64,000 nucleotides of DNA from Providencia huaxiensis (GTDB lineage: Bacteria > Pseudomonadota > Gammaproteobacteria > Enterobacterales > Enterobacteriaceae): NCBI RefSeq assembly GCF_002843235.3, contig NZ_CP031123.2, forward strand, positions 992,001 to 1,056,000, in the 5' to 3' direction. Of the stretch, positions 9,807-62,396 are shown piece after piece (position 1 is the first letter of the stretch; each line of letters opens with the position of its first letter). The position numbers and the translations under genes were made by a program. Below the pieces are notes generated by a model. The model made no database searches. It was not told the DNA's origin and saw only the letters and a list, made by a program, of their open reading frames with translations.

Positions 9807-11063
9807 TTAGCGGACGATAATACCTAATAGAATTCCGATTGCGCCAAAGTCAGCGTCACTGAATGTAGTATTAGCAATACCAATATCCCCAAGAACAGGT
9901 AACAGGAATACGGGTAGGAAGGTAATCAATAGTCCTTGAGCGAATGCACCCAAGATAGCGCCACGACGACCGCCTGTTGCATTACCAAATACACCAGCAG
10001 CTGCACCTACGAAGAAATGGGGGACAACGCCTGGAATAATAACCGTCATATTTAATGCATATAGAACGAACATTCCCAAAACACCCGCAGCAAAACTACT
10101 TAAAAAGCCGACTAATACTGCGTTTGGTGCATATGGGAAGACCACTGGGCAGTCTAAAGCAGGTTTTGCGTTAGGGACTAATTTGTCAGAAATACCTTTA
10201 AATGCAGGGACGATTTCTGCAATAACCATACGCACACCTTGCAGGATAATGTATACGCCCGCAGCAAATGTAATAGATTGCATTAATGAGAACATGAACC
10301 AATTCTTACCACCACTGACTTCGCGAACGAAATCACCGCCTGCGAATAAGCATGTAATGATAAAAATAATGAACATGGTGAAAGAGATAGCGACAGGTGT
10401 ATCTCTCAAAAATAGTAAGCTTTTCGGGACATTCATATCTTCTGTTGAATGTTCTTTATTACCGAATTTGCTTCCAATGAACCCTGCTAGGACATAAGAA
10501 ATCGTTGAGAAATGGCCAATCGCAACATCATCTGAACCCGTCACTTTTTTCATGTAAGGGTGGGCAATGGCTGGGAAAAATACCATACAAAAGCCAACAA
10601 TCAGTGAGCCAACAGTGACTAATAGTGTACCTTCCATTCCCGCGGTGGCTAAGATAACCGCAATCATCATGGACATGAATAAAGTATGATGCCCTGTGAG
10701 GAAAATAAATTTCCAAGGCGTTAAGCGGGCAATCAAGATATTGATTAGCATCGCAAAGAACATGATCATGGCCATTTCACGACCGAAGCTTTTTTGTGCA
10801 ATAGAAACAATAGCTTCGTTATTTGGTACCACACCATTAATACCAAAAGCATGTTGGAAAATAGCTGAAAAATCACCTAGCGAGCTGACAACTAATCCAG
10901 CACCAGCACCTAAGATCACAAAACCCATGATGGTTTTGATGGTGCCTTTAATACATTCAGTTACTGGTTTTTTCTGCGCGATCAAACCAATAAGTGCGAT
11001 TAAACCCACAAGAATGGCTGGCTCAGATAAAACATCCTGCATCAGAAAACGAAAAAATGACAT
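9807..11063 (-). CDS. PTS EIIC component, ascorbate (UlaA/SgaT) class
   Basis: A 418-residue membrane permease of the ascorbate-type PTS superfamily (EIIC_sga). About eleven hydrophobic segments are visible, and family patches such as GFVILGAGAGLV, GHHTLFMSMM and GNATGGRRGAILGAF occur. It moves its sugar across the inner membrane while EIIB phosphorylates it. It is the last of three genes (EIIA, EIIB, EIIC) with 11- and 22-base gaps, and GGAGG precedes the start. No ula catabolic genes (ulaD, E, F, G) lie here, so the substrate is open and need not be ascorbate. Confidence 0.88.
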   Translation of the reverse strand: MSFFRFLMQDVLSEPAILVGLIALIGLIAQKKPVTECIKGTIKTIMGFVILGAGAGLVVSSLGDFSAIFQHAFGINGVVPNNEAIVSIAQKSFGREMAMIMFFAMLINILIARLTPWKFIFLTGHHTLFMSMMIAVILATAGMEGTLLVTVGSLIVGFCMVFFPAIAHPYMKKVTGSDDVAIGHFSTISYVLAGFIGSKFGNKEHSTEDMNVPKSLLFLRDTPVAISFTMFIIFIITCLFAGGDFVREVSGGKNWFMFSLMQSITFAAGVYIILQGVRMVIAEIVPAFKGISDKLVPNAKPALDCPVVFPYAPNAVLVGFLSSFAAGVLGMFVLYALNMTVIIPGVVPHFFVGAAAGVFGNATGGRRGAILGAFAQGLLITFLPVFLLPVLGDIGIANTTFSDADFGAIGILLGIIVR

Positions 11064-11074
11064 AGTGCCTCCGC

Positions 11075-11362
11075 TTACATTGCACCAAGTTTTTGTAAAG
11101 CAACAGTCAGGCGTTCTTTCATTGCTACTTTATCAATCATATTTTCGAGAGCAACGATTTCGCCACCAACTTGTTGTGCAACTAATTGTTCTGCAATATC
11201 GCTTGTCCCAACAAAGATGTCACTCACAGTGCCTTTTGCAGATCCTAAATCGACATGGTCAACATCAGCGTTAACTTGCAAGTCTTTCAAGATATTTTTG
11301 ATGCTCATTTCCATCATCAGACTGGTACCTAAACCATTCCCACAAACAACAGTAATTTTCAT
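11075..11362 (-). CDS. PTS EIIB component, ascorbate/galactitol class
   Basis: A 95-residue cytoplasmic EIIB. The phosphocysteine is Cys8 in the P-loop-like start MKITVVCGNGLGTSLMME, typical of UlaB/SgcB-type domains. Later residues (GTSDIAEQL, ALENMIDK) also fit. It receives phosphate from the EIIA encoded just upstream and hands it to the incoming sugar held by the EIIC downstream. AAGG precedes the ATG. Confidence 0.9.
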   Translation of the reverse strand: MKITVVCGNGLGTSLMMEMSIKNILKDLQVNADVDHVDLGSAKGTVSDIFVGTSDIAEQLVAQQVGGEIVALENMIDKVAMKERLTVALQKLGAM

Positions 11363-11384
11363 AATGTTTACCTTAATATTGAGT

Positions 11385-11831
11385 TTATTCGTATTTAGCG
11401 ATGATTTTTAGAATGTCATCGACGTTTTCTGATTGCATGATGTTATCTACATCTTCTTGATTATCAAATAGTTCAGCTAATTTTGCGATAGCACCAATAT
11501 GGCTATTGCTATCAGTTGCTGCCAATACAATTAATAATCTGATTGGGTCATTGCCTTCGGAACCAAACTCAACGCCTTGCTTAATAACGGTTAGTCCAAG
11601 AGATAGTTGGTTTACTCCGTCTTCTGGGCGTGCGTGAGGCATGGCAATACCAGGGCCTAATACATAGTAAGGGCCAATTTTTTCGTGTGATTGAATTATT
11701 GCATCAATATATCTCGGTTCGATGAATTTATTATTAATTAATGGGTTACAGGCGATTTTTATCGCTTCTTGCCAATTACTGGCACTGTCGACGACTTGAA
11801 TGACGTTAGGGGTCAGTAATGTCGTTAGCAT
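11385..11831 (-). CDS. PTS EIIA component (fructose/mannitol-type, UlaC-like)
   Basis: A 148-residue EIIA of the PTS_EIIA_2 fold. The phosphorylated histidine is in GIAMPHARPEDGV (His about residue 64), the family signature. It is the first gene of the operon with AGGAG before the ATG. It takes phosphate from HPr. The promoter region upstream holds two LacI-type operators, so expression is probably repressed by the divergent LacI-family protein. Confidence 0.9.
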   Translation of the reverse strand: MLTTLLTPNVIQVVDSASNWQEAIKIACNPLINNKFIEPRYIDAIIQSHEKIGPYYVLGPGIAMPHARPEDGVNQLSLGLTVIKQGVEFGSEGNDPIRLLIVLAATDSNSHIGAIAKLAELFDNQEDVDNIMQSENVDDILKIIAKYE

Positions 11832-11896
11832 CGGGTTGCTCCTGGTAGAGTGAAATTATTATCTTTGTAATGGTTGAATGAATAGTAGTGCTCTAT

Positions 11897-11942
11897 GGTA
11901 GCGCTATCTAGTTGAATATTTCATTTTCGTGATAGCGCTATC
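11897..11942. promoter_or_regulatory. Twin LacI-family operators between PTS operon and regulator
   Basis: GGTAGCGCTATC (11897-11908) and GATAGCGCTATC (11931-11942) are almost identical 12-bp palindromes whose centres are 34 bp apart, about three helical turns. The central CG-containing dyad is typical of LacI/GntR-type operators. They sit 66-111 bases before the EIIA start in a 359-bp divergent gap; the rest of the gap shows no gene. Confidence 0.8.
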
Positions 11943-12190
11943 ATTTTAAGAAAATATAGCGAACAAATATGAAATGAGTACACTTGTCGGCTGATTAACA
12001 AATTCAACCTGTGGTAAGTTAACCCGAGTTGGTGATTTTTACTGTTTCTTTAGATTTAAGACAATCATATTGGCTGTTTTTAATGTATTAGTTTGAAAAC
12101 ACGAGAAAAAGTAAAAGTACAGGGTAAATGGCCACCAAAGATCTGAATATCTTAGGGTTAATAATAGTTTAGGCTAAGTAAAAGTATTAC

Positions 12191-13225
12191 ATGCAAAAAA
12201 TACGAAAAAGAAAAAATACAGGGCGAGTCACATTGCAGGATGTCGCAAAATACGCAGGTGTTGGATCCATGACGGTATCTAGGGCTTTGCGCACACCTGA
12301 ATTAGTATCCGATAAGTTACGTGAAAAAATTAATGCTGCAGTTGAAGAGCTTGGTTATATACCTAATTCAGCGGCAGGTATTTTAGCTTCAGGCCAAAGC
12401 CGTACTGTTGCTGTTTTAATTCCGTCTTTGCGTGATCATGCTAGTTCAGTTTTTCTGCAATCTTTACAAGAAGCGCTGAACAAAAATAGTTATCAAGTCG
12501 TTATTGGTAGCCATGATTACCAGCAAAAAAAAGAGTCTGAGGTCTTATCAACACTATTACAGAGCAACCCCGCAGCTTTGATTGTTTTTGGGGCGATAAA
12601 CTCAGAAAGCGTTTCGAATTATTTGAAGAATTTAGATATCCCTGTGGTCAGTGTTGCGGGAGAATCTAATCATCCAGTCACGTTGAATATCAAAAGTAAT
12701 GTTGGAGACGCGGTTAATTTTTTAACCAACTATATGTTACAAAAAGGGTATAAGAAGATAGGTTATATTGGTGCTCAAATGGACAGCAAAATGCAAAGTC
12801 AGCAACTAAGTGGCTGGAACCGAGCAATGCTGGCGTATAACCAAAGTGCAGACCAAAGTATTACAACTCCGTATGTTGCAACGATGGACTTTGGTCGCCA
12901 AGCAATTAGTGAGATGCTGACCCGCCAACCTGAGCTTGAAGCGGTGATTTGTAGCCATGAAATGATCGCGCTTGGTGTCATTTTTGAGTGCCAAAGGCGT
13001 TTAATTCAGATACCTAAAATGTTAGCAATTGCCTGCGTCGAAGGCTCTTCAAATTGTGATCACATCCACCCATCACTGACTTCAGTACGGATTGATTATA
13101 GTAAAATGGCTAGAGAGACAGCGAAAAGATTACAAAAATGGCTTGCTGATGCCGATTGTGATTTCATTGAACGTAAAGAAGGGGTTGTTTTCCCCTATAA
13201 ATTTGAAGCAAGGCAAAGTGCTTAA
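12191..13225 (+). CDS. LacI-family repressor (GntR/IdnR-like)
   Basis: A 344-residue repressor. The N-terminal helix-turn-helix reads VTLQDVAKYAGVGSMTVSRA (about residues 13-32), with the hinge helix AAGILASGQSRTVAVLIP, then a periplasmic-binding-protein-like effector domain (about 68-335). The wording of the DNA-binding domain resembles GntR/IdnR of the gluconate systems. It is divergent from the PTS operon and is the natural candidate to bind the two palindromes at 11897-11942. Ligand is unknown. The ribosome site is weak, so the exact start is less certain than the family. Confidence 0.9.
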   Translation: MQKIRKRKNTGRVTLQDVAKYAGVGSMTVSRALRTPELVSDKLREKINAAVEELGYIPNSAAGILASGQSRTVAVLIPSLRDHASSVFLQSLQEALNKNSYQVVIGSHDYQQKKESEVLSTLLQSNPAALIVFGAINSESVSNYLKNLDIPVVSVAGESNHPVTLNIKSNVGDAVNFLTNYMLQKGYKKIGYIGAQMDSKMQSQQLSGWNRAMLAYNQSADQSITTPYVATMDFGRQAISEMLTRQPELEAVICSHEMIALGVIFECQRRLIQIPKMLAIACVEGSSNCDHIHPSLTSVRIDYSKMARETAKRLQKWLADADCDFIERKEGVVFPYKFEARQSA

Positions 13226-13482
13226 ATTTAATTTATCGTTATTGATCACGTTTTTTTGAATATCTTGCTTGTCCTTAGTAAATAATGGTGCATTTGCTCA
13301 CTATTTCGGGGGCTGAAAAGTGGTTTTTTTTTCTCTCGAAATAAGATTGTCGGCTTGGTCACTATATCTTTTTTATTCTCTGTTAATGTATGAAAACTGC
13401 AGGTAGATGAATTCGGTTCAGCTAGGATTTTATTGAATGCTTGCACTATTTTTGCCGTATTAGATATTAACAGGGGAAAATT

Positions 13483-14376
13483 ATGAAATTACTAAAAACA
13501 GCTATCTCCAGCGCAATTTTATTTTCTTGTGGTGCGATGGCTACGATGACGGGTTCTGAAATTCTGAAGGTACAGGATGGGGGAACACCGAATAAAGTTT
13601 ACACTTCAGACAAACCAACCATTAAAGTAGCCACTTATAACATTGGTAAAAATGAGTTGGCATCAGATGTCAGTGACCTTGATGGGCTGAATAAAGCGAT
13701 TGCAAAAATAGATGCGGATGTGATTGTTTTAACTGAAATTGATAACAAAACAGCTCGCAGTAAAAAAGTTCACCAGCTAGAAGAAATAGCTAAAGCCAAT
13801 AAGATGGATTTTGCTTTTGGTAAGGCTCTGGATTTTGATGGTGGAGAGTACGGTGTGGGAATTTTATCAAAATATAAAATCGATAAGTCTAAAGTGATTA
13901 ATTTACCCTCTGGTGATGCAGAACAACGTGTTGTATTAATATCCCAGATATCAAAACCAGGCTTTGATGCGCCAATCATTGTAATGGGTACACACCTTGA
14001 TTGGCAGAAAGATCCAACCATTCGCATTGGGCAAGTGCGCCATATTTTAGATGCGAGTATTGGGGACACGGATACGGGATTTGATAATATTGCGGCCTCA
14101 ATAAAAATATTAGCGGGAGATTTTAATTCAACAGCTAATGAACAGCCTATCCAAGAAATTCGTTATATGTGGAACCCAGTTGAGTTAAAAGGTGTTGATT
14201 ATCGTAGTTGGCCAGCGGTGAACCCAGCCATTGATATTGACCATATTTTTACATTTAAAGGCCAAGTTTGGGATGTGAAAAAAATGGAAATCCCAACGGA
14301 TAGTAAAGAGTTTCAATGGTCAAATGTTAGTGACCACCTACCTATAGTTGCTGAATTAGAGCTACAAGAGCAATAA
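13483..14376 (+). CDS. Exported endonuclease/exonuclease/phosphatase (EEP) family protein
   Basis: A 297-residue protein with a signal peptide (cleavage likely near CGAMA, residue 21). The catalytic elements of the EEP (DNase I-like) fold are in order: ATYNIGKNE, LTEIDNKT with the metal-binding Glu, GGEYGVGILSK, GTHLDWQKD, GDFNSTANE and SDHLPIV at the end. The enzyme should be a metal-dependent phosphodiesterase acting in the periplasm or outside; substrate could be nucleic acid, a phospholipid head group or an inositol phosphate. It is monocistronic, with AGGGGA before the ATG and a strong terminator after it. Confidence 0.88.
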   Translation: MKLLKTAISSAILFSCGAMATMTGSEILKVQDGGTPNKVYTSDKPTIKVATYNIGKNELASDVSDLDGLNKAIAKIDADVIVLTEIDNKTARSKKVHQLEEIAKANKMDFAFGKALDFDGGEYGVGILSKYKIDKSKVINLPSGDAEQRVVLISQISKPGFDAPIIVMGTHLDWQKDPTIRIGQVRHILDASIGDTDTGFDNIAASIKILAGDFNSTANEQPIQEIRYMWNPVELKGVDYRSWPAVNPAIDIDHIFTFKGQVWDVKKMEIPTDSKEFQWSNVSDHLPIVAELELQEQ

Positions 14377-14401
14377 ATACTTAACAGAAAAATTTTCGAT
14401 A

Positions 14402-14429
14402 AAAGGCCTCATTTAGTTTGTAGGCCTTT
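14402..14429. terminator. Bidirectional terminator
   Basis: AAAGGCCT and AGGCCTTT form a perfect 8-bp stem with a 12-base loop, between the convergent EEP gene and the small gene at 14447. Confidence 0.8.
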
Positions 14430-14446
14430 CCAACTGTAATGATAAG

Positions 14447-14734
14447 TTAATTGGCTAGTATTTTTTTCCTTTCAATATAGCGTTTTTCAGCTATGCCTAA
14501 ATAATACTCAACTGTTGAGTATATCTGCTGCCGCTGCTCAGTTAATTGTTGTGATGTATCTAATGTTGCACTCGTCTGCTGTTTAAATACGGTAAGGAAT
14601 TTTTGAATGCTATCGAAATGACCGACGATATTAGCATAGTAAAATTGATATACATAAGACTCTTGAGAGTGGCTTAGCTCTGTGTTGTTTTTGATGTTAT
14701 TAGTTGCAAGTAATAGTAATTGAATATTTGTCAT
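14447..14734 (-). CDS. Hypothetical 95-residue helical protein
   Basis: Not recognised. The protein is predicted mostly helical, rich in Gln, Thr and Ser, with no signal peptide, membrane span or Cys. The middle carries SQESYVYQFYYANIVGHFDS and the end is basic (KRYIERKK). AAGGG upstream of the ATG and a terminator beyond its end support a real gene. Its size and helical content would suit a small cytoplasmic regulator or adaptor, but nothing in the context says so. Confidence 0.55.
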   Translation of the reverse strand: MTNIQLLLLATNNIKNNTELSHSQESYVYQFYYANIVGHFDSIQKFLTVFKQQTSATLDTSQQLTEQRQQIYSTVEYYLGIAEKRYIERKKILAN

Positions 14735-15788
14735 GGTTTACCCTTTTCTTTGGAAAGCAATGCTACATGAGATGGAAAAAATATTTTGTCAAATTTAGCC
14801 GGATAATTTTATGTATTGGCTAAAAGAAGCAATTCTTTCTAGGAATATTCTGTAATTTGATTTGGTGGGATATATCAAAAATTGGGAAAAAGTAGGTATA
14901 TATAAGAGTCTAATGGTAAATTACTATATAGATATTGTTAGGAATTCTTATGTTTTTTGGGTTTGTCTATTATGATTAACTTTTTAATATCAAAAAATTA
15001 ACATTTTAGTAATTGATTTGTTTGTTATTTTGTTTTTATTAATCAATTGGTTAAAATCTATTGCGCTTAAGGGAAAGCGGCAATTTGGCTAATTCATTCT
15101 AAAAAAAATGCAAGATAACGAGACGTTAAGAATAAAGATGGAAGATAATTTAAATCAATGTGAATATTTTCATTTAATTGAATTTAAAGTATTTTTTTGT
15201 TTTTGGCTGCGAGAGTAGGCCAATGGGCACTTACTTGAAAATAACGAATAAATTATTAATTAATTCAAACTTACGCTTTTATTGAGTTAAAACACCCACT
15301 AAGTGAGTTAATTAATATTTCGACATAACTATTATTAAGTTGAATTGTTTTATTACATATTTTTTCTCATTTTTGTTAAATTATAATGAACACTTAAATC
15401 TTATTATTGTTTTCTGTTTTTGGTAAAATAATTTTTTTTAGTTAAAAAATTCAAATTGAAACAGTTAATGTTTTAAGTACTATTTATATTCATAGTTTAA
15501 TATTGACGTTTTTACTCTCTTGGTGCGTGAAGTAAAGTATAAATACGGATGGTTATATAAAACTAATTGTGTTTTTTACTCTGTTGGTGGCAGCTATCGA
15601 GGGTGATAATTAGAAAAAACAGGTCATCTAATAAGGTATTCTTATATAGATAGGGTTAGCCATTATTAAAAAAATTATTATTTACTTACAATTGACTCAA
15701 GGTAACTATTTAAGTCTATTCTTGGGGCAAAATTTTTAGGTCATTTTGGTCAACTGGTTTGTTATTGAATAAATGAGAGCTTAAGAAT
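14735..15788. other. Long AT-rich noncoding region
   Basis: About 1,050 bp with no convincing gene on either strand; the longest frames are under 30 codons without ribosome sites. The DNA is very A+T-rich with many short A or T runs, a composition that suits H-NS binding. A near-perfect direct repeat (15508-15589) is described separately. Confidence 0.6.
15508..15589 (+). repeat. Direct repeat of 17 bp
   Basis: TTTTTACTCTCTTGGTG (15509-15525) and TTTTTACTCTGTTGGTG (15573-15589) differ at one base and are 64 bp apart, about 200 bp before the gene at 15789. They may be regulator sites or chance in a low-complexity region. Confidence 0.5.
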
Positions 15789-52172: not shown

Positions 52173-54011
52173 ATGAACATGGATTTTCAAAAACCGCGTT
52201 GGTTAAGAGACTTACTGCGATTTATTCCACTGAAAAGCCAGTTTGTCCTATTTGGTAATGTTCGTGACTTACAAGCCAGCGAAATTGCGCCGACGGTAGT
52301 GACACCGCTGCCATTTAACCAAGCACTCTTTAATAACTTATTTCAGGCTGGATATGCCTATGTGATCACCTACACACCACTTATTGGCTTCCAATGCGTG
52401 GCAAACTCCAAAGAAAACCCACAAGCGACTGCCACATTGATGCAAAACTTAGGTTTGCATATGGCTGATGATAAAGCCGCTGGTGGTATTGATATGCTAA
52501 ATCATTTGCTGGAAAAATTTATTAACTACAAGCAGCAGCCAATTGCATTATGTATTGATTTCGCCTCTTGCTTGATTTCCCATCGCGATAATCTAACTCC
52601 GGCTGAGCACAGCTTATTTACTCGCGCTCTGGTGGTTTCTCATCAAGCCAAAGCGCGACCAACCGGGGAAAATAACCAGCCGTTCTACAATTCTATTTTT
52701 TGGATTGTGGAGAAAGAGACCGACCTGCCAGATTGGTTTTTAGTTAATAACCCACGAATAAGAGCCATTCCCGTGGCGAAGCCTGACAACCAAGTTCGTC
52801 GGGTCCTTACGCCAATGTTGCTTGCTTCCTTGGCGGATATTAATGGTATAGAACAGGCTGATAAAGATAGCTTATTTAATGATTTCATTGATGAAACAGA
52901 AGGTCTCTTATTATTAGACTTAACGGCAATAGTACAGCTTGCACGGATTGAAAATGTCCCTGTGACACGTATTAGTGATGCGGTACGGCGTTATAAAGTC
53001 GGCATAACGGAAGACCCATGGAAAAAAATTGATAAGCAGAAAATACATAACGCACCAGAGATTATTTCTCGCCGAGTTAAAGGCCAACAACACGCTGTCA
53101 CCCATTTATTGGATATTATTAAACGTGCAATGACGGGAGTGGGGGGGCATAAAGGTGGTCGGCCTCGAGGCGTTTTGTTTCTAGCGGGGCCAACGGGGGT
53201 TGGGAAAACAGAGCTGGCGAAAACGGTCACTCAATTGCTATTTGGTGATGAAAGTGCCTACATCCGCTTTGATATGTCTGAATTTAGCGCTGAACATGCA
53301 GACCAACGCTTAATTGGTGCTCCTCCTGGCTATGTCGCTTATGACTCTGGTGGTGAATTGACAAATGCCATTCGTGAGAAGCCATTTAGCGTGGTACTGT
53401 TTGATGAGATAGAAAAAGCGCATCCGCATTTAATGGATAAGTTTCTACAAATTATTGATGATGGCGTATTGACCTCCGGCCGTGGAGATCGCGTCTATTT
53501 CTCGGAATCTTTAATTATTTTCACGTCAAATCTCGGTATTTATCGCTTGGATGCGAATGGTGAGCGAGTGGCGAATGTGCAACCCAGTGAGCCTTTTGAA
53601 ACGGTGACACGCAATGTGAAAAGTGAGATCGAACGTCACTTTAAATTAGTACTAAATAGGCCTGAGTTACTCAATCGAATTGGGGAAAATATTATTGTTT
53701 TTGATTTTATTCGCCCCGATGTGGCACAGCAAATATTCGAACAAATGGTGGACAATATTCTTTCTGGTTTGGAAAAACAATCGCTGACGATTACCATTTC
53801 CTCACAAGCCAAAGAGACGTTAAAACAACATTGCTTAGCCGATTTATCTAATGGTGGTCGAGGTATACGTAACCAATTAGAAAGCTATTTAATTAACCCG
53901 TTATCTCGTGCTGTTTTCGACCAAGATTTGCAACCTAATTCAGCTTATCAAATTGTTGAAATTGCCACAGGCGAAACCACGCAAATCACGTTAGCTGTGA
54001 TGAGTAATTGA
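52173..54011 (+). CDS. AAA+ ATPase, ClpB-D2-like with degenerate N-terminal AAA-like domain
   Basis: A 612-residue ATPase, first gene of a four-gene operon. The C-terminal half (about 315-610) is a ClpB/ClpA D2-type module: Walker A GPTGVGKTELAK (339-), pore-loop-like DQRLIGAPPGYVAYDSGG, Walker B VVLFDEIEKAHP (Asp411, Glu412), sensor 1 IFTSNLG and a lid domain with GGRGIRNQLE. The first 300 residues look like a degraded AAA+ domain: a Walker-B-like IALCIDFASCLI, sensor/arginine-finger-like NPRIRAIPVAKPD and a helical lid, but no Walker A. There are no ClpB N-domain repeats or middle coiled coil. AAGGGG precedes the ATG. A remodelling or unfoldase role on its operon partners is inferred. Confidence 0.85.
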   Translation: MNMDFQKPRWLRDLLRFIPLKSQFVLFGNVRDLQASEIAPTVVTPLPFNQALFNNLFQAGYAYVITYTPLIGFQCVANSKENPQATATLMQNLGLHMADDKAAGGIDMLNHLLEKFINYKQQPIALCIDFASCLISHRDNLTPAEHSLFTRALVVSHQAKARPTGENNQPFYNSIFWIVEKETDLPDWFLVNNPRIRAIPVAKPDNQVRRVLTPMLLASLADINGIEQADKDSLFNDFIDETEGLLLLDLTAIVQLARIENVPVTRISDAVRRYKVGITEDPWKKIDKQKIHNAPEIISRRVKGQQHAVTHLLDIIKRAMTGVGGHKGGRPRGVLFLAGPTGVGKTELAKTVTQLLFGDESAYIRFDMSEFSAEHADQRLIGAPPGYVAYDSGGELTNAIREKPFSVVLFDEIEKAHPHLMDKFLQIIDDGVLTSGRGDRVYFSESLIIFTSNLGIYRLDANGERVANVQPSEPFETVTRNVKSEIERHFKLVLNRPELLNRIGENIIVFDFIRPDVAQQIFEQMVDNILSGLEKQSLTITISSQAKETLKQHCLADLSNGGRGIRNQLESYLINPLSRAVFDQDLQPNSAYQIVEIATGETTQITLAVMSN

Positions 54012-54012
54012 T

Positions 54013-54645
54013 GTGGTGAATATTAGTGTTTCACGGATCCATTTCCCAATTACGGCCTTAGGCCCCGGAAAACGTATTGGTATCTGGTTCCAAGGTTGTT
54101 CATTACGTTGTAAAGGCTGTCTTTCTCCTGATACATGGCAAGTGAAAGACAATAACATCACGGTAGAACAATTGTTGGAACAGATCACTGAGTGGCTACC
54201 GTTGGCAGATGGCATCACGATTTCTGGGGGAGAGCCATTTGAGCAACCTGAAGCCTTATTCGCATTAGTTAGTGGGATTAAACAGCTAACAGACGCGGAT
54301 ATTTTAGTCTATAGCGGTTATCAATGGGATGACATAGAAAAGCGTGTTTTACAAATGGCTCCCTGTATTGATGCCTTGATCAGTGAGCCATTCAAAGTGG
54401 ATCTTCTGCAAACCCAAATGCTCAAGGGTAGTGATAATCAACAATTACATATGTTGACACCATTAGGAAAAGCACGATTTATGGCATACCAGCGTTCGAC
54501 GACACCAGAAGATAAAGTACTGGATTTAGCGTTTGACGAAACCGGGCGGCTATTTTTGGCGGGTGTCCCTGAACGTAACGATATGTTGCGCCTACGTACC
54601 TTGATTGAGCAGCAAGACCAGTCTTTGCAACAACTAAAAAAATAA
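54013..54645 (+). CDS. Small radical SAM protein, NrdG/PflA activase-like
   Basis: A 210-residue radical SAM protein of the COG0602-like group. The cluster motif is FQGCSLRCKGC (Cys29, Cys33, Cys36), with no second Fe-S cluster insert, and the SAM-binding GGE motif is ITISGGEPFEQPE. It starts at GTG 54013, one base after the AAA gene stop, so it is translationally coupled. Known relatives activate glycyl-radical enzymes (NrdD, PflB), but no glycyl-radical enzyme lies in the operon. It might instead modify a partner protein or nucleotide. A small radical SAM gene fixed between an AAA+ ATPase and a helicase is unusual. Confidence 0.88.
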   Translation: MVNISVSRIHFPITALGPGKRIGIWFQGCSLRCKGCLSPDTWQVKDNNITVEQLLEQITEWLPLADGITISGGEPFEQPEALFALVSGIKQLTDADILVYSGYQWDDIEKRVLQMAPCIDALISEPFKVDLLQTQMLKGSDNQQLHMLTPLGKARFMAYQRSTTPEDKVLDLAFDETGRLFLAGVPERNDMLRLRTLIEQQDQSLQQLKK

Positions 54646-54661
54646 TTAATTGGATGAATGG

Positions 54662-57600
54662 ATGACCATGATACGTTTTTGCCCACATTGCCAAACAGAG
54701 AGACCATTAACTGAAATTTTTTGTGCGGGGCAAATTAAAACACCACAAGGAGATAATCAGTTTTGTGGTTGGGATTTAACCCTTGAAGCCATTCATGAAT
54801 CTGGCTGGCGTCCTATTGATGAGCCCAATACATCGATTGAGCGTCCACAACTCAATATTGCTGAAAATAATCAAATTATTGAACAAAGAGTTTGTGTGAA
54901 TGGGCATACCATGGATGAGGGGGATTTTATTTGCCTCGAATGTGGGGAAGATGCTGCGGTTGAGCCAAGCAATGCTGAGGAACAATCTCAACAACTGATA
55001 GGCAATTGGCGGCTTGAGCGACGTATAAATCAAAATGATAGTCTACGGGAGCGTTACTTAGTCACACATATTGAAAGTGAAAAAAGTGGCGTACTTACCT
55101 TATATCAAAAAGGTGAAGAACCTGATCCAACTATTTACCAAGTACTTCAATTGCTCCCAACAGACCACGTACCTGAATTTTATGAAACAGGCCGCTGGGA
55201 AAACCGTGCTTGGCATGTGACTGAATTACTGGAAGGTGGCTCACTCAGCCAATTTATTCAGCAAGGGGATTTTTGGCAACTTCATGAAATTCCGAAATTA
55301 GTTGAGGAAATGGGGAAAGCGATAGCGGCATTTACCGAACATGGTTTGCGCCATCGCAACCTATGTCCCGCTAATTTATTGATCCGCAGCCGTGAGCCTT
55401 TAGATATCGTTGTTATTGAATATGGCTCTGCGAGTTTGTCTGAGTTTGACCTTGATATCGTGACCCCTTTGGATATTTCCCGTTATAGCGCACCAGAAAC
55501 TTTAGCAGGCGGTGTAAGCGCTGCATCAGACTGGTGGAGTCTCGGGGTTATTCTATTAGAACAGCTAACCCGAGGACAGTGTTTCGCTCAAGTTCATGAT
55601 AATGCGTTCTTAATTCAAGTCATGACCAATGGCATTGATTTACCTGATGATTTAGACCCTAACTTACAATTATTATTACGTGGATTACTGTGTCGGGATC
55701 GTTTTTTACGTTGGCAATGGCCACAGGTGTCAGCATGGCTAGAAGGGAAAGCCGTCCAAGCCCCACAAACCGCGATAGCAGGCTCGCCAGCTCAATACCA
55801 TCAAGTCCAGTTTACAGGTCAGCAATTTTCTCAGCCAGATACTTTTGCCATGGCTGCTGGTGAACAAGCTCATTGGGATGATGCTGTGCAATTTTTGTTA
55901 CGCGGGGAGTTAACATCATGGCTCGCAAAATTTGATAATAGCCAGGAGCAGTTAAAGCAACTTCAGGGCTTTTTAGATAGTGAAAAATCGCTAGATGGAT
56001 CCGTGCAAAGTGAAATTAATCAAGATATTAAGCTAACTTTAGCCTTAAAAATCCTCAACCCGAATATGCCATTTATTTATCGTGGCGAAATCATCACACC
56101 AGCGTGGTTATTAGAACAACCTATTCTTGCTTATACCCTCATTAGTGAACCATTAACTCAACATATTCAGAATATTGACCCACAACATTGGTTAGTGCAG
56201 CTCTACCACCGCCAGTGTTTAGTACGCCAACGCGCTGAACAATTGAATATATTACTCAATGAAGAAAGCTTGAAACTGTATTTGTTGATCACGTCAATAA
56301 GCCAGCTCGCTGCGCGTTGGGAATTGCTGCATAGCCAGTTTCCTGACTCTCATAACGAAAGCCTACAAGCCTTATTAGATAGACAAAATCGACAAGAAAT
56401 TGATTATATTTTATTGCTAAGTGCCGATATTGGGCAATTTGTTTCACTGACCGCATTAGTCGAGCAATCTTTTGAATTAGCAAAACAAAATGATATCCAC
56501 AGTTTTGATAGCGAAATAGCCAAAAACCAGCTTTTGTTACCAAGAGGGGAGCTATACCAGCTCATTAACCTCCGAGTCAGTGATTTTAAACGAATTGGGC
56601 TTCCTGAACTCGATAGTTGGGTGGATAACTTTTTATTAACGCGTCGCTTGCCATTAGAAAAAATACTCGTTTTGCTCGCTATTCCATTCGAACATTGGCA
56701 AGTCCCCGAGTCACAAAAATATGTTCTTGAAGTTCTAAGGTTTTTTACACAAAAGCTCACGTCAGTGACACAACGTGGAAACCTAGTGCGCATGCGTTTA
56801 ACGCAAAATACTGGGCGAGTCGATTTAATGGAATGTGATAGCCCGGTTCGCCGTGCGAATATGCTACTCGAACACTTATTGAACCGTAAAAAAAGTGCGG
56901 TTAGCATTGATAGTGATTTATTATTGCAGCATCGGGGCGTCAATAGCCGATTACGGATCCTACAATCAGATACGCAGTTATATCAACGGGATACGGGTAT
57001 TGATGGCATGTATCTTGGTTTCCCATTCTTATTATTGCACACACAGCCGAACCAAATTAAACCGCGAATAGCGCCTTTATTTTTATGGCCGGTTTCGTTG
57101 CGTACTTCTTTAGCTCAAAATAGCCCCATTCAGCTTAGTTTTGATCAGGAGCGGGGGGCAATACGCTTAAATCCAGCACTCGCAAGCTTTGCGGGTATAC
57201 CTTCAGTGACTGAATGGCAAACAGTATTAGATAATTTATTATCTAAAGCGGGTTTAACCATTGAAGATATGATGGAAACACTTGCGCCTTTATTACCGAT
57301 ACAAGGTACGGAACTGACGCCACTTCCGTCGATCACGACCTCAATTGCAGAGAACAGTGCACAAATCTGTTGTTCAGCGGTACTCTTCCATACCTCGTTT
57401 ATTGGCCAGGCGATGAGTAGCGATCTACAGCAAATTGCTGGGCTACCTATTTCCCAAACAGCCTTAGCGACAATGCTAAAAGTCTCACCGCTCAATAGCA
57501 CGAGCGAAACGCAGCCAGATAATTTACTTAACCAGTATGCGTTGTCATTGGCCGATCCATCACAAGAACAAGTTGTTCAAGCTGCACAAGCGAACACGGG

Positions 57601-60600
57601 GCTGCTGATTGAAGGGCCGCCAGGGACAGGGAAAAGTCAAACCATCGTGAGTTTGATTGCGGATGCAATAGGATGTCAGCAAACCGTTTTAGTGGTATGT
57701 CAAAAACCTGCGGCATTAGAGGTGGTCTATAAGCGTTTGATTGCTAATGGATTAGGAGATAGAGCGCTATATATCAGCCAAGGCCAAAGAGGCCGTGACA
57801 CTATTTTGGCAGTGAGGGAGCAAATTGAGCAACTTTGGGAACAAGAAAAAAGCCAGCTCAGTGAGCGTGATTGGTCAGGAGAAAGAATTCATCTTGTTAA
57901 TCGCGTTCAGCTATTTGAACGAAAATTAGACAACTACTTTCACTCGATGAATAATATCGACGAAAAGTTTCAAGTTTCTTATAAACAAGTATTAACCCAG
58001 TTGATTGAACTTGAAAAGCTTCCTCATTTTGATATTGATGAACAGGAAATTAAGCCATTATTAGCGCAACTTGATAGCCATACGATTGAGCAACTAACGG
58101 ATGACTTGAAGTTACATGCATATACTTGGTGGCAATTGGATTATGAAAATAATGCACTAAACGCCTTAGCACAGTTTACGGTAGAAGAGCCTCAATATTT
58201 ATTGTTTAATCAATCTATTACAAGGTTGATTGATACTGAAAAACAGCGTGATGAAGCTTACCAAACACAATATCAGCAAATCACGTTGACTCAATTATCG
58301 ACTCATGAGCAATGGCTAATACAGCATGAAGTACAATTTAACCAATTAACGGCTGAACAATGGCAGGAATTCTCCCGTTGGTTACCACTATTTCGCGGTG
58401 AAACGGGAAATTCCATTATTCAGCAACTTGAGCTGTTGTATCAGCGATTATTATCGATTAATGCAGAAAATATCGACCCGTTATTATTCCCTGTGTTTAG
58501 GGGGCTTGATAATCAGCATCTTGCCCAATTATCGCGAGCATTGATGGAAACAATGCAAGGGTCATGGTTACGTTTCTTGAACCCGTATTACTACCGTCGG
58601 CAAAACCAATTGCAGTCATTTATGGCAACGAGTGGCTTAGCGTCGACGACTGAAAAACAGACGTTAGTGCTTGACACCATTGGTGTTGAGCAACAATGGC
58701 GCTTACTTGAAAAAGAATTACAACCATTATATCAACAGCTTGGTCTTGAACTTCAGCCAAACCACCAGTGGCGTAGCACATTGCAACCGCTGGTCATGCA
58801 ATTAAAACGAGTGGCAGATATGGCTGAGCTTCTCGCTCAGTATCCTGAACCTGTGCATTTTATAGACGCGATTATTCAGCAACAAAGAACGGGGTTTACT
58901 CATCAATGCTGTGAAATCAGGGCGGCAATAGCCAAATTACGCGCAAGAACGGAAAGCTTGAACCAACTGAGTGAGCTAGACAGTGTATTTTCACCAGAAA
59001 CAGTTGAACGGTTTAAAGTGGCCGTGGCAAACGGCGAGTCATATACGGCTGAACTGGTGAAAATAGAGCAACAAAAAGAAAATTTATTGCGTTACCAATC
59101 ATTTAGGTCGGATACGCAACACTTTTCACAACAGCATTGGGGGCTCCTTGTGCTATTAAAACCGGCAATCAAGCAGCTTATTGCCACTGACGGTTTCACA
59201 ACGCAATGGCGAGAACAATTAGTCCAAACTGTTAACTATTACTTCTGTCTGTTCACTAAAGCGCAGTTAGTGGCAACATTGCCTGCATTAAGTACCAACC
59301 ACGACCAGCTGATGTCGGATCTAGCCGAACTAGAGAATGCCCAAAGACAATTACAACAATTCAATAAATTGGCATTGACGGCGAATATAGATATCAAAAT
59401 GTTAGGAAACCGCCGTGAATGGGAAGAAATTACTCGTTTAGCAGGGCCAAGAGCTCGACGTTTGAGGGAGTTTATACAAGAAGGTAGAGATATTGGGTTA
59501 ATGCAACTACGGCCGGTTTGGTTAATGACACCCGATGTTGCGAGCCAAGTACTTCCACTTGAAAGCGCTATGTTTGACAGCGTAATCTACGACGAAGCCT
59601 CACAGATGCCAATTGAATTTGCATTATCGACCTTATTTAGAGCCAAGCAGGCTATTGTGAGTGGCGATGAAAAGCAAATGCCGCCATCAAAATTTTTCAC
59701 AGGTAAGCTAATTGAAGACGACATTGATGACGAAGACGATGACCAACAAGAATTGGCGGGAGAGCAATGGGATTATCGGCAAATCAGTGATTGTCCTGAT
59801 TTATTGCATTTAGCGCGAACTGTATTACCTATTCATACATTGGATATTCATTACCGTTCTGCCTATCGAGAACTAATCAATTTCTCCAATTTTGCTTTTT
59901 ATGAAAATAGGCTCAACATCCCAGCACAATTTTCTGCCAAAATGGTCAGTGAAATTAAGCCATTACAGCTTATTCCAGTTAATGGTACCTATGTTAACCA
60001 AAGCAATGAAGCTGAAGCTAACGCCATCGTGGAACATTTGGCTTCAATGTGGCAACGGCCTTTCGAGCAGCGGCCTTCTGTGGGGGTCGTCACGTTTAAC
60101 CAAAAACAAGCAACATTAATTAACCAAATAATTCAATTACGTGCAGCACAGGATGAAGGCTTTCTTCAGGCGTATACGCAGGAAAACCAACGCACTCATG
60201 ATGACGAAGATATGTCATTTTTTGTGAAAAATGTGGAAAATGTACAAGGTGATGAAAGGGATGTGATTTTATTTTCTACCACATTTGGTCGTAATGCGCA
60301 GGGGACATTCAGGCGTAACTTCGGGGTACTAGGGCAAACTGGTGGAGAACGGCGTTTAAATGTCGCGATCACTCGTGCTCGCCAGCAAGTTGTGATTATG
60401 ACATCGATGCCAATAGATGAAATTTCTGATTTATTAGCCACTTACCGCAAACCGGAAATCCCACGAGATTATTTACAAGGCTATCTGGCTTATGCATTAA
60501 ATGCATGCAACCCATTGATGAAAAAAGAAAATGAAAAACTACTCCACCGCATGTGCCATACACAGTCTGCGGTTGGTAGCGAAGCACTCCCACAAAATGC

Positions 60601-60961
60601 GTTTGTCGATTCGGTCATGGGCTTTATTCGGCAAAGTGGCTGGCAGGTGACCACCTCAAGCCAAAATGGGGTATTCCATTTTGATGGTATTGTTGAGGAG
60701 CAAACCAGCGGCCGTTTGCTCATCGGCATTGAATGCGACATGCCATCACACCCACTATTGAAAACAGCCCGTTCTAGGGAACTGTGGCGTAGCACTGTTC
60801 TGACGCGTGTGGTACCCGCACGCTATCGAGTGTCTATTATCGAATGGTATCAAAATCGCGATTTGGCACAGCAACAACTGCATGATGCCATTTCACAGGC
60901 TTTATTAACTTCATCACTCTCTCAAATAGAGAGCCAAAATCCGCAAGAAGGTGCGTTATGA
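54662..60961 (+). CDS. Giant zinc-ribbon/pseudokinase/SF1 helicase/nuclease protein
   Basis: About 2,099 residues. Start ATG 54662 (TTG at 54650 and ATG at 54668 possible). Order: Cys zinc ribbons (CPHC, FCAG, FCGW; later C-x-x-GH and CLEC, residues about 5-100); a protein-kinase-like domain (about 115-370) with APE (277) and SDWWSLG (289) but HRN (231) for HRD and EYG (253) for DFG, so probably inactive; a long helical region; an SF1 DNA2/UPF1-type helicase with Walker A GPPGTGKS (985), Walker B DEAS (1644), GDEKQMPP (1668), VQGDE (about 1861) and RRLNVAITRAR (1897); long helical insert between Walker A and B; and a C-terminal domain with Asp2008, then IGIECD (Glu2024, Asp2026) and RELWRSTVL, as in Vsr-fold REase_MTES_1575 nucleases. 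Its stop overlaps the next gene by four bases. Function unknown; nucleic-acid attack is inferred. Confidence 0.88.
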   Translation: MTMIRFCPHCQTERPLTEIFCAGQIKTPQGDNQFCGWDLTLEAIHESGWRPIDEPNTSIERPQLNIAENNQIIEQRVCVNGHTMDEGDFICLECGEDAAVEPSNAEEQSQQLIGNWRLERRINQNDSLRERYLVTHIESEKSGVLTLYQKGEEPDPTIYQVLQLLPTDHVPEFYETGRWENRAWHVTELLEGGSLSQFIQQGDFWQLHEIPKLVEEMGKAIAAFTEHGLRHRNLCPANLLIRSREPLDIVVIEYGSASLSEFDLDIVTPLDISRYSAPETLAGGVSAASDWWSLGVILLEQLTRGQCFAQVHDNAFLIQVMTNGIDLPDDLDPNLQLLLRGLLCRDRFLRWQWPQVSAWLEGKAVQAPQTAIAGSPAQYHQVQFTGQQFSQPDTFAMAAGEQAHWDDAVQFLLRGELTSWLAKFDNSQEQLKQLQGFLDSEKSLDGSVQSEINQDIKLTLALKILNPNMPFIYRGEIITPAWLLEQPILAYTLISEPLTQHIQNIDPQHWLVQLYHRQCLVRQRAEQLNILLNEESLKLYLLITSISQLAARWELLHSQFPDSHNESLQALLDRQNRQEIDYILLLSADIGQFVSLTALVEQSFELAKQNDIHSFDSEIAKNQLLLPRGELYQLINLRVSDFKRIGLPELDSWVDNFLLTRRLPLEKILVLLAIPFEHWQVPESQKYVLEVLRFFTQKLTSVTQRGNLVRMRLTQNTGRVDLMECDSPVRRANMLLEHLLNRKKSAVSIDSDLLLQHRGVNSRLRILQSDTQLYQRDTGIDGMYLGFPFLLLHTQPNQIKPRIAPLFLWPVSLRTSLAQNSPIQLSFDQERGAIRLNPALASFAGIPSVTEWQTVLDNLLSKAGLTIEDMMETLAPLLPIQGTELTPLPSITTSIAENSAQICCSAVLFHTSFIGQAMSSDLQQIAGLPISQTALATMLKVSPLNSTSETQPDNLLNQYALSLADPSQEQVVQAAQANTGLLIEGPPGTGKSQTIVSLIADAIGCQQTVLVVCQKPAALEVVYKRLIANGLGDRALYISQGQRGRDTILAVREQIEQLWEQEKSQLSERDWSGERIHLVNRVQLFERKLDNYFHSMNNIDEKFQVSYKQVLTQLIELEKLPHFDIDEQEIKPLLAQLDSHTIEQLTDDLKLHAYTWWQLDYENNALNALAQFTVEEPQYLLFNQSITRLIDTEKQRDEAYQTQYQQITLTQLSTHEQWLIQHEVQFNQLTAEQWQEFSRWLPLFRGETGNSIIQQLELLYQRLLSINAENIDPLLFPVFRGLDNQHLAQLSRALMETMQGSWLRFLNPYYYRRQNQLQSFMATSGLASTTEKQTLVLDTIGVEQQWRLLEKELQPLYQQLGLELQPNHQWRSTLQPLVMQLKRVADMAELLAQYPEPVHFIDAIIQQQRTGFTHQCCEIRAAIAKLRARTESLNQLSELDSVFSPETVERFKVAVANGESYTAELVKIEQQKENLLRYQSFRSDTQHFSQQHWGLLVLLKPAIKQLIATDGFTTQWREQLVQTVNYYFCLFTKAQLVATLPALSTNHDQLMSDLAELENAQRQLQQFNKLALTANIDIKMLGNRREWEEITRLAGPRARRLREFIQEGRDIGLMQLRPVWLMTPDVASQVLPLESAMFDSVIYDEASQMPIEFALSTLFRAKQAIVSGDEKQMPPSKFFTGKLIEDDIDDEDDDQQELAGEQWDYRQISDCPDLLHLARTVLPIHTLDIHYRSAYRELINFSNFAFYENRLNIPAQFSAKMVSEIKPLQLIPVNGTYVNQSNEAEANAIVEHLASMWQRPFEQRPSVGVVTFNQKQATLINQIIQLRAAQDEGFLQAYTQENQRTHDDEDMSFFVKNVENVQGDERDVILFSTTFGRNAQGTFRRNFGVLGQTGGERRLNVAITRARQQVVIMTSMPIDEISDLLATYRKPEIPRDYLQGYLAYALNACNPLMKKENEKLLHRMCHTQSAVGSEALPQNAFVDSVMGFIRQSGWQVTTSSQNGVFHFDGIVEEQTSGRLLIGIECDMPSHPLLKTARSRELWRSTVLTRVVPARYRVSIIEWYQNRDLAQQQLHDAISQALLTSSLSQIESQNPQEGAL

Positions 60962-62310
60962 GTTCATCGGTTCATCGTATAACTGTTAGAGAAATGAATG
61001 AAATTCAGTGCCGGCGTCAGCTTGCGGTAGCTAAACGTCGATTTAAACAGTGGCAAGTATTGGCAAATAGTAGCCAATATCATCCGCCGCGTATTGCACA
61101 AATCACGCAAGCTTATCAGCAGCTAATGGAAAATTCTGCTCAGCTTGCCACATTGTCATCACGCAATTTAAGCTTGTTGAATAACCAATTAGTTGAGTTT
61201 ACAGGGACACTGAATAACGAAGTACAGGAAGTTCGTGAGCAACAACTTGAAAAACAAGCGCTATTAGCCCGGACAAAAAAACACAGAGAACATAATTTGG
61301 CTGAGTTAATCACATTGGTTCGTGAAAAACTGCCAAATGAAGCCGAACTACTTGCACAATTAGTTTCGGCAAGTGAACAGGATGAAAGCCAATCTAATAA
61401 ACTGATTTTTAAAGCATTAGCTACATTGAGCCAGCAATCAATGGTGCTAGCGCCAACAGCAGCTGCATTATTGGAACAGCTAAAAGCACAATCTGAAGGT
61501 GTAAAACAATTTTGGCAATCAGGCTTACCTCAAACACCGTTTGCCAAACAATGTGAACAGATCCTATTGATGATTGAAAAGCTGAAATTGATGACCTCAA
61601 TTGATGATGCTCAACGTGCTGAGCAACAACTGGTTGAGCTTCGGGAGCTTAAAGAAGGCACACAGCGCCATTTACGTGCCGACTCATTGATCATGACATT
61701 GGCGGAGCAATTAAAGTTAAGCCAGCAACGCGTCGAGCTTATCGATAAAATTGAACAGCTTTGTGATGAATTGGCTATTTTTGCGAGTGACGAAAATGAA
61801 GCCATGATTTCGAGTGCGTTAGCGAGTATACCATCAAGCTCGATAGAAGCGTTAACCACATGGGTCGATAAGCTAGGCAGCGCAGTGAGTGTAGCCGAGC
61901 AACAAGTTGTTGCTGCTGCACAAAGGAAAACGGTCTTAGATGGGTTAGGGAAACTCGGTTATCAAGTTCAAGATACGGATGTTAAAGCATGGCTGGATGA
62001 TGGCAAAGTGGTTGTCACACATTCTGCCACGCCGGGATATGGGCTTGAATTAGGCGGGAAACAAGCGCGTTTTCAAGCGCGTACAGTGGCTTTTTCTACA
62101 GGGCGAGATAATTCACGAGACCAGGATGTTGATGCAATTTGGTGCAATCAGCACCAACAATTACAAGATATTATTGCCCAAACAGATGCGGAACTTGTTG
62201 TTGAGCAGGCACTACCAGCAGGAAGTGGCGAAATGAAAGTGTATGAAACTCAATCTGAAGAGCAACGTCGCAATATAGCTGTAAACCACCCCAAAACACG
62301 CAGTAAGTAA
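60958..62310 (+). CDS. Coiled-coil partner protein of the helicase operon
   Basis: A 450-residue soluble protein, not recognised. Residues about 1-320 are almost all helical, rich in Gln, Leu, Glu and Ala with heptad-like runs (for example LNNEVQEVREQQLEKQALLA and AEQQLVELRELKEG). A compact C-terminal region (about 330-435) has strand-like patterns, KLGYQVQDTDVKAW, GYGLELGGKQARFQARTVAF and DVDAIWCNQ. Its ATG lies inside the stop of the giant gene (ATGA), so the two are made together and probably bind. No enzyme motif is seen. It may be a scaffold or sensor. Confidence 0.8.
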   Translation: MSSSVHRITVREMNEIQCRRQLAVAKRRFKQWQVLANSSQYHPPRIAQITQAYQQLMENSAQLATLSSRNLSLLNNQLVEFTGTLNNEVQEVREQQLEKQALLARTKKHREHNLAELITLVREKLPNEAELLAQLVSASEQDESQSNKLIFKALATLSQQSMVLAPTAAALLEQLKAQSEGVKQFWQSGLPQTPFAKQCEQILLMIEKLKLMTSIDDAQRAEQQLVELRELKEGTQRHLRADSLIMTLAEQLKLSQQRVELIDKIEQLCDELAIFASDENEAMISSALASIPSSSIEALTTWVDKLGSAVSVAEQQVVAAAQRKTVLDGLGKLGYQVQDTDVKAWLDDGKVVVTHSATPGYGLELGGKQARFQARTVAFSTGRDNSRDQDVDAIWCNQHQQLQDIIAQTDAELVVEQALPAGSGEMKVYETQSEEQRRNIAVNHPKTRSK

Positions 62311-62357: not shown

Positions 62358-62396
62358 AAAAAAGCTGAATTCGTTAGGCGCGAATTCAGCTTTTTT
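62358..62396. terminator. Strong bidirectional terminator
   Basis: AAAAAAGCTGAATTCG and CGAATTCAGCTTTTTT form a perfect 16-bp stem with a 7-base loop. It closes the four-gene operon and the convergent sit operon. Confidence 0.95.

Follow-up and report, generated by a model that had tools for sequence, protein, structure and literature searches.

Why should an AAA+ ATPase, a radical S-adenosylmethionine (rSAM) enzyme, a giant helicase-nuclease and a coiled-coil protein be encoded together? The question is raised by an operon of four co-directional open reading frames (ORFs) on the + strand at positions 52173-62310 of a 64,000-nucleotide stretch of the Providencia huaxiensis genome (contig NZ_CP031123.2), which in its full length is called the window below. 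We place at about 0.5 the probability that the four products work together as one machine, which checks foreign or aberrant nucleic acid and cleaves it, with defense against phages or conjugating elements as its most likely purpose. A broader proposal, which sequence comparisons lead us to favor slightly over its negation, is that a chassis composed of an Hsp100-like ATPase (with a dead first AAA+ domain, D1, and an active second one, D2), a NrdG-like rSAM enzyme and a coiled-coil protein arms interchangeable superfamily 1 (SF1) helicase-nuclease effectors, in which the nuclease may be a fused Vsr-like or a separate PIN domain, with or without a kinase-FHA-PP2C module. One form of this chassis would be present in every Pseudomonas aeruginosa genome as the "core flank" of the defense hotspot cDHS1.

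The four genes and their shared inheritance

An earlier note, made from the nucleotide sequence of the window, had described four tightly joined genes in this order; all four ORFs were recovered on the + strand where it had placed them, and searches with hidden Markov models (HMMs) of Pfam and NCBIfam agree with the domains that it had assigned. Gene 1 (52173..54011, 612 aa) is matched by AAA_2 and ClpB_D2-small and encodes a double AAA+ protein, in which a P-loop-less D1-like domain (residues about 5-278; 52185..53006) precedes a ClpB-D2-type domain (53055..53972) with intact Walker A and Walker B motifs and a tyrosine pore loop. All ten gene 1 sequences checked contain a single Walker A pattern, located in D2. 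The AlphaFold2 model of the protein is weak overall (predicted local distance difference test, pLDDT, of 68, with D2 poor), and a comparison of the profiles of the two halves with each other found no relation between them (hhalign E 0.62); despite this null result, assignment of the N-terminal half as a putative D1 is supported by structure comparison, in which it resembles p97 D1, Vps4 and PAN, and the domain also stands alone in two relatives described below. Gene 1 thus shares with the Hsp100/Clp ATPases two AAA+ domains with a ClpB-type D2, but differs from them in having a D1 without a functional Walker A motif. Gene 2 (54013..54645, GTG start, 210 aa) matches the Fer4_12 and radical SAM models, and the best NCBIfam model is that of NrdG (TIGR02491), at 97 bits, below the 126-bit cut-off. 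It contains the motifs CxxxCxxC and GGEP, has KGSDNQ at the position of the family's RGSDNQ, and bears a C-terminal extension.

Gene 3 codes for a giant protein of about 2,100 aa and ends at 60961; it may begin with a TTG at 54650, which gives 2103 aa, or with an ATG at 54662, which gives a junction of +16 bases to gene 2, and conservation in the family starts near residue 7. Along the giant follow two zinc ribbons (residues 11-39 and 82-98; 54680..54943), a pseudokinase (residues about 148-364; 55091..55741), a helical region, a DUF4011-type SF1 helicase of the DNA2/UPF1 kind (57545..60415) and a Vsr-like MTES_1575 nuclease (PF18741; 60602..60892), the Pfam matches being Pkinase at 164-360, DUF4011 at 758-845, AAA_11/AAA_12 over the helicase and MTES_1575 at 1985-2081. 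We evaluated conservation over 118 giants, namely the window protein and 117 relatives drawn from the best 120 of 610 matches, three of these 120 being left out because they were not longer than 1990 aa. The eight Cys/His positions of the zinc ribbons are kept in 114-116 of the 118, the scored helicase motif residues in 112-118, and the nuclease residues D2012, E2028, C2029, D2030 and H2034 in every one. The pseudokinase label holds across the family: the position of the VAIK lysine is occupied by tyrosine in 118/118 giants, and the DFG aspartate is kept in a single one. Gene 4 (60958..62310, 450 aa), which overlaps gene 3 by 4 bases, gave only a sub-cut-off HMM match. Its AlphaFold2 model (pLDDT 84) shows a long coiled coil and, toward the C terminus, a conserved alpha/beta domain (residues about 327-430; 61936..62247); for this model Foldseek returned no match in the PDB at E <= 0.001, a result that shows neither novelty nor absence of relatives.

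The four genes behave as one co-inherited unit. They were found in the same order and on the same strand at 24/24 distinct loci compared, from Alpha-, Beta- and Gammaproteobacteria where named, a recurrence that exceeds chance. These loci correspond to 25 rows (L013 and L026 come from the same genome); in four rows a gene is broken or split (L032, L040, L041 and L044), and one row (L035) was read from overlapping long ORFs; remnants in Microvirga and Roseomonas (L022 and L023), which retain only the giant's end and the coil gene, were left out of the count. Among 24 Providencia genomes the giant has a full-length match in 12, interrupted in one of them (G018), while a 13th has only a 26-bit helicase match. 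Exactly the same 12 genomes carry the rSAM ortholog (266-469 bits); in the other 12 the rSAM matches reach at most 62 bits and are NrdG-like in length. Likewise, in an order-wide sample of 295 genomes the giant, a strong match to the D1 of the ATPase and the coil profile fall in the same six genomes, our own included. Pairwise divergences of the four proteins are correlated, with r between 0.992 (giant and coil) and 0.903 (ATPase and rSAM enzyme, the lowest value); this figure is descriptive, since the sequences are related, and was computed from 20 rows of the 25, with both L013 and L026 included.

The ratio of nonsynonymous to synonymous substitution (dN/dS), estimated from three pairwise comparisons, is 0.03-0.04 for the ATPase, 0.08-0.09 for the rSAM enzyme, 0.11-0.13 for the giant and 0.16-0.24 for the coil. 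Between the window and one of the other genomes (G012, L024) the synonymous divergence of the coil gene is 0.115, far below the 0.36-0.46 of the ATPase and rSAM genes, and this difference suggests recombination inside the operon.

The unit is also absent as a whole, and its place varies among the Providencia clades: eight genomes have it between yniA and sitD and four elsewhere, and in 10 of the 12 genomes without it yniA directly adjoins sitD. Two of these empty sites belong to the close relatives G011 and G008, whose yniA genes are 97 and 94% identical to that of the window. On a tree built from two genes the absences are scattered over the genus, a pattern that would suit loss of the operon. 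Beyond Providencia the giant occurred in 2/369 class-wide genomes and 6/295 order-wide genomes, the source genome being counted in both. It was found in one of the eight genomes of another genus (g271), that one being the seed genome itself, and strongly matched in 9/35 of a further genus (g324; six full length, two reduced and one split over contigs), three of these nine positives having been known beforehand. The best named relatives of both giant and coil come from Providencia huaxiensis and P. rettgeri. A scan of contigs with the single giant as query gave one close relative, and a PHROGs scan general relatives only.

A recurring ATPase and rSAM pair with different cutting parts

The D1 search of the same 295 genomes also returned weak matches in five further genomes (family f185), and from these we reached six loci with a relative that we call phospho-type. 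All six code for the ATPase (37-40% identity over nearly its whole length) and for a coil-like protein, and four for the rSAM enzyme (34-41%). An FHA protein with a double zinc ribbon was recognized by Pfam at one locus (L102) and by BLAST at four more (L103, L104, L106 and L107), and a PP2C phosphatase was recognized by Pfam in L102 and by BLAST in L103, which also has a kinase with HKD and DFG motifs. In the fetched stretches L105 gave no BLAST match to the FHA protein and L106 and L107 none to the rSAM enzyme; in L106 two ORFs each match part of the FHA protein. A fuller version is found on the Aristaeella lactis plasmid NZ_CP069422.1, where a single run of genes codes for a DUF4011 helicase-nuclease (2151 aa), a kinase, a coil, the zinc ribbon-FHA protein, an rSAM enzyme, the AAA ATPase and a PP2C. 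The pseudokinase region of the giant matches the separate kinase of this run (E 3e-15). The C-terminal domain of the window coil aligns with that of the phospho-type coil at hhalign E 9e-5 and probability 59 (E 0.0018 and probability 15 in other alignments); together with the neighborhood, this is suggestive of a relationship between the two coils. The window operon looks like a condensed version of the phospho-type one, in which zinc ribbons and kinase may have been fused to the helicase-nuclease and kinase catalysis lost, a direction that we infer.

In a further arrangement the operon consists of an SF1 helicase, a PIN nuclease, a hypothetical coil-like protein, the AAA ATPase and the rSAM enzyme. 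It is alike in five of six plasmid relatives (Moellerella, Acinetobacter, Polaromonas, Photobacterium and Leisingera), its domains being identified by HMM in Moellerella and by the annotation of the records in the other four. The Moellerella operon lies on a conjugative plasmid and is flanked within a few kb by a restriction S subunit and, at its opposite end, by ArdA. Its coil-like protein resembles the window coil in place and coiled-coil character only, the hhalign comparison of the two not being significant (E 0.21). When 398 genomes sampled over the phylum were searched with the phospho-type D1, one weak match was found. Directly after the PIN-type operon of Acinetobacter sp. WCHA55 plasmid pNDM1_010055 stand three more genes, which the record labels AAA ATPase, radical SAM and hypothetical protein (L111:11712-13694), and about 1.2 kb upstream of the Photobacterium operon there is another gene annotated as radical SAM (L114:1-14).

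By these sequence comparisons, all three arrangements have the ATPase in common, in most cases together with the rSAM enzyme, and they differ in the cutting part. A reduced two-gene relative in two genomes of genus g324 (G693 and G705; L079:6845-12886 and L080:1904-7927) may hint at a smaller core still. Here gene 1 is reduced to its D1 part (237 and 227 aa), next to which lies a shortened giant that has kept one zinc ribbon and the helicase-nuclease and lost the pseudokinase; the rSAM enzyme, D2 and coil were not found in the fetched stretches. The giant of G693 has the Walker A, DEAS, motif V, motif VI and ECD motifs, the exact patterns SGDEKQMPP and RExWR being absent, and that of G705 is interrupted. 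Because dN/dS between the two genomes is 0.18-0.20, selection has acted on the reduced form. These observations may suggest that D1 and the helicase-nuclease are a core, and that D2, rSAM enzyme, pseudokinase and coil go together. A 582-aa ORF adjoins the reduced relative in both genomes.

Relation to named systems and to the flank of cDHS1

No named system with which the operon was compared has a definition that it fits, in agreement with the earlier note. The best named HMM matches of the giant are all to anti-phage or candidate anti-phage proteins. ProA (NF058533) matches the helicase-nuclease half alone, at 501 bits with the best stretch at residues 967-2096, far below the 1500-bit cut-off. 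The PADLOC candidate PDC-S37 likewise matches that half alone, at 486 bits over profile positions 292-1351 of 1550, and so not at full length, whereas the separate giant of Aristaeella matches it at 1308 bits. With Hhe (NF042953) the giant has in common the DUF4011-type SF1 helicase and nuclease region, at 306 bits against a cut-off of 2000. With Mokosh it shares the SF1 helicase core, in which the best stretches of the MkoA (146 bits) and MkoC (84 bits) matches lie, both scores being under those of PDC-S37 and ProA, and the helicase of the Moellerella PIN-type operon reaches 341 bits with MkoA. Mokosh type I also has a kinase, and a PLD-family nuclease is a defining part of Mokosh; no PLD domain appears among the Pfam matches of the four window proteins, whose nuclease is of the MTES_1575 type. 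Gene 1 gave no full-length match to Dodola DolB or PDC-M37B, only matches over residues 229-454 or 335-454.

Two further systems provide parallels in composition. The phospho-type relative shares its kinase, PP2C and FHA components, beside AAA ATPase, rSAM enzyme and DUF4011 helicase-nuclease, with the TerY-P triad of kinase, PP2C and TerY, clusters of which occur with helicase and nuclease genes according to PMC4978471; however, no TerY is annotated in the Aristaeella run, and the window version has a pseudokinase only. The vWA-MoxR "FtsH ternary" conflict systems are AAA+-based and include a radical SAM enzyme predicted to modify a partner, as described in PMC7159879, but a vWA domain is absent from the window proteins by Pfam and the ATPase family is not the same. 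The putative effector is a DUF4011/SF1 helicase-nuclease of a kind already tied to defense, and the new part is the AAA+/rSAM chassis. The earlier note had set the ATPase and the rSAM gene apart as fitting no named system; this holds as far as definitions go, yet no other part of the machine proved to be shared as widely as these two. The literature searched, which lay outside subscription papers, yielded no account of the four genes as one system, which does not prove that none exists, nor did it reveal the origin of the name ProA.

A form of the operon may already be familiar under another description. In PMC10250203 a DUF4011 gene is reported from every P. aeruginosa isolate, flanking cDHS1, and the right flank of this hotspot is listed as a small hypothetical gene, a large DUF4011 gene and a radical SAM gene; there these genes serve as core boundary markers and are not treated as a system. 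The P. aeruginosa DUF4011 proteins (2098 aa, with 3452 and 2367 member sequences) are 43% identical to the giant over 99% of its length, and we infer that the genes flanking cDHS1 are this operon. If so, PAO1 and PA14 already carry the system, and the boundary genes of the hotspot would themselves be a candidate defense or genome-surveillance system. In PAO1 the operon presumably bears the tags PA2725-PA2728, with PA2727 as the giant. PA2727 appears in mutation tables of two genome comparisons, being called helicase-like in one and a histidine kinase in the other. A "putative kinase", PA14_28895, which may correspond to the giant, is listed as mutated in ciprofloxacin-selected lines.

Defense and its alternatives

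How such a machine might work can be sketched from its domains. The helicase-nuclease would be the effector: it would load at stalled intermediates or at the ends of DNA (or RNA) and cut while it translocates. Zinc ribbons and pseudokinase could act as a scaffold or switch, in place of the separate zinc ribbon-FHA adaptor, kinase and PP2C of phospho-type operons. The AAA+ ring may dock by its dead D1 and thread protein through D2, and this threading would either break up an inhibited complex of coiled coil and giant, setting the latter free, or strip proteins off the target. The rSAM enzyme might mature or license the coiled coil or the AAA+ protein through a radical modification for which the Fe-S cluster must be intact. 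If this is true, a helicase-nuclease coupled to rSAM chemistry and to an Hsp100-type unfoldase would represent a novel means of licensing the destruction of nucleic acid.

Conflict systems typically combine exchangeable effectors with a control chassis that stays constant, and it is because the ATPase and rSAM enzyme stay constant while effectors are exchanged that we prefer defense as the purpose. The reading of the earlier note is supported in part on this point: linkage, variable loci within Providencia and kinship with anti-phage proteins stand, to which can be added plasmid-borne relatives and the putative cDHS1 flank. Among 72,556 plasmid records eight, each longer than 600 kb, matched at least 80% of the giant, and three of those examined were typed as conjugative. 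Beside the copy on a Rhizobium plasmid (L041) all three of the nearby genes tested had PADLOC matches (TcmP, DUF3644 and a methylase). On Microvirga (L022:11704-17714) and Roseomonas (L023:988-3692) plasmids the truncated end of a giant lies beside transposases and is followed by a coil gene. The Microvirga remnant is then followed by a gene annotated as type I restriction endonuclease, with a SIR2-family gene there as well.

Several observations weigh against defense or against a universal chassis. The tree of giants is mostly taxonomic, with exceptions such as Stenotrophomonas inside Pseudomonas; G441 stands next to Rhizobium, with unsure placement (about 2.5 kb upstream at the G441 locus there is an integrase of phage type). 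The neighbors examined in Enterobacterales are mostly backbone genes (an RND pump, LysE, MFS, mutS and ppnN), and PADLOC found weak matches for one of nine flanking proteins, a hybrid histidine kinase near G390. Phages provide little: one of 50,697 phage records has a match to the giant, partial and C-terminal, and viral contigs gave none with a single-protein query and two partial relatives, one with a coil gene, with an alignment query. The DUF4011 gene is reported as species-wide in P. aeruginosa (PMC10250203), which, like the tree, is more in keeping with a stable cellular function, and the radical SAM and unfoldase steps are without a precedent open to comparison. In the fetched phospho-type stretches of the order BLAST found no relative of the helicase-nuclease and matched the rSAM enzyme at only four of those six loci, so that neither may be universal there; and in a sixth plasmid record, Geminocystis, the ATPase has no partners recognizable by annotation. 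Distribution and location give mixed signs on defense: the operon is patchy and partly plasmid-borne, yet its neighbors examined in Enterobacterales are mostly backbone genes. One contig filed as viral (L077, IMGVR_UViG_2870897478_000005) carries at 9956-15141 a helicase-nuclease end, as a 1279-aa ORF, and then a coil gene.

Genome maintenance stays the chief rival, if a distinctly less probable one, on account of the mostly taxonomic tree, the backbone neighbors and the reported occurrence throughout P. aeruginosa. Under it the helicase-nuclease would process stalled forks, R-loops or protein-DNA blocks while the unfoldase removes the blocker, a task that the combination suits, and proximity to cDHS1 would be accidental; the appearance of PA2727 and PA14_28895 in mutation lists can be read in the same way. 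Such a housekeeping role agrees poorly with an operon that is missing from half of the Providencia genomes, with apparent losses, and is positive in 2/369 class genomes; the report of the DUF4011 gene in every P. aeruginosa isolate, however, comes close to the housekeeping distribution that the earlier note had named as refuting its reading, though within that species only. Nor does it readily account for full-length copies and relatives on conjugative plasmids or for anti-phage proteins as the best named matches. An improbable alternative is an RNA-acting stress or abortive system, in which helicase and nuclease, when triggered, would act on RNA and stall the cell: the helicase core is indeed of the UPF1/SMUBP-2 type, and one related arrangement has a PIN nuclease, of a fold common in RNases, but DNA2 is also among the solved helicase relatives and Pfam names MTES_1575 a restriction-endonuclease type, pointing to DNA.

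We regard it as very unlikely that the operon serves metabolism or maturation, with the NrdG-like enzyme as the activase of a glycyl-radical enzyme and the other products in accessory roles. Although NrdG is the best model for gene 2, at the sub-cut-off score given above, the activase reading was set aside, as Pfam finds no glycyl-radical domain in the four proteins; separate NrdG-like genes are present in the 24 Providencia genomes, and most of the relatives examined, whichever of the three arrangements they have, keep the rSAM and AAA+ genes together. Equally slight is the chance that the operon is a neutral passenger or a decaying island. Giants interrupted in G018 and G705 and broken in L041 and L044, an AAA gene split in G441 and the truncated remnants beside transposases would fit decay, but the dN/dS values of the four genes (0.03-0.24) are not near 1, and over the 118 giants the active-site residues are kept with no random loss seen.

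As for the surroundings of the operon, the neighbors named in the earlier note could be identified, yniA as a fructosamine-kinase-family gene and the sitC/sitD-like genes as ABC-3 permeases. A hairpin with a perfect 16-bp stem (62358..62396) lies between the operon and the convergent sit operon; it is the longest of 12 terminator-like sites, the total number of which equals the shuffled mean. It had been described as the terminator of the four genes. The perfect stem is there, but not as a mark of this operon: because the operon-less G011 and G008 have a similar hairpin at the same junction, it is probably the terminator of the sit operon, shared with the four genes. In a relative from another genome (G690, L081:886-5018) the region upstream of the operon has, on the opposite strand, eight successive ORFs of 159-161 aa at a spacing of 521 bases, which are probably a tandem gene array.

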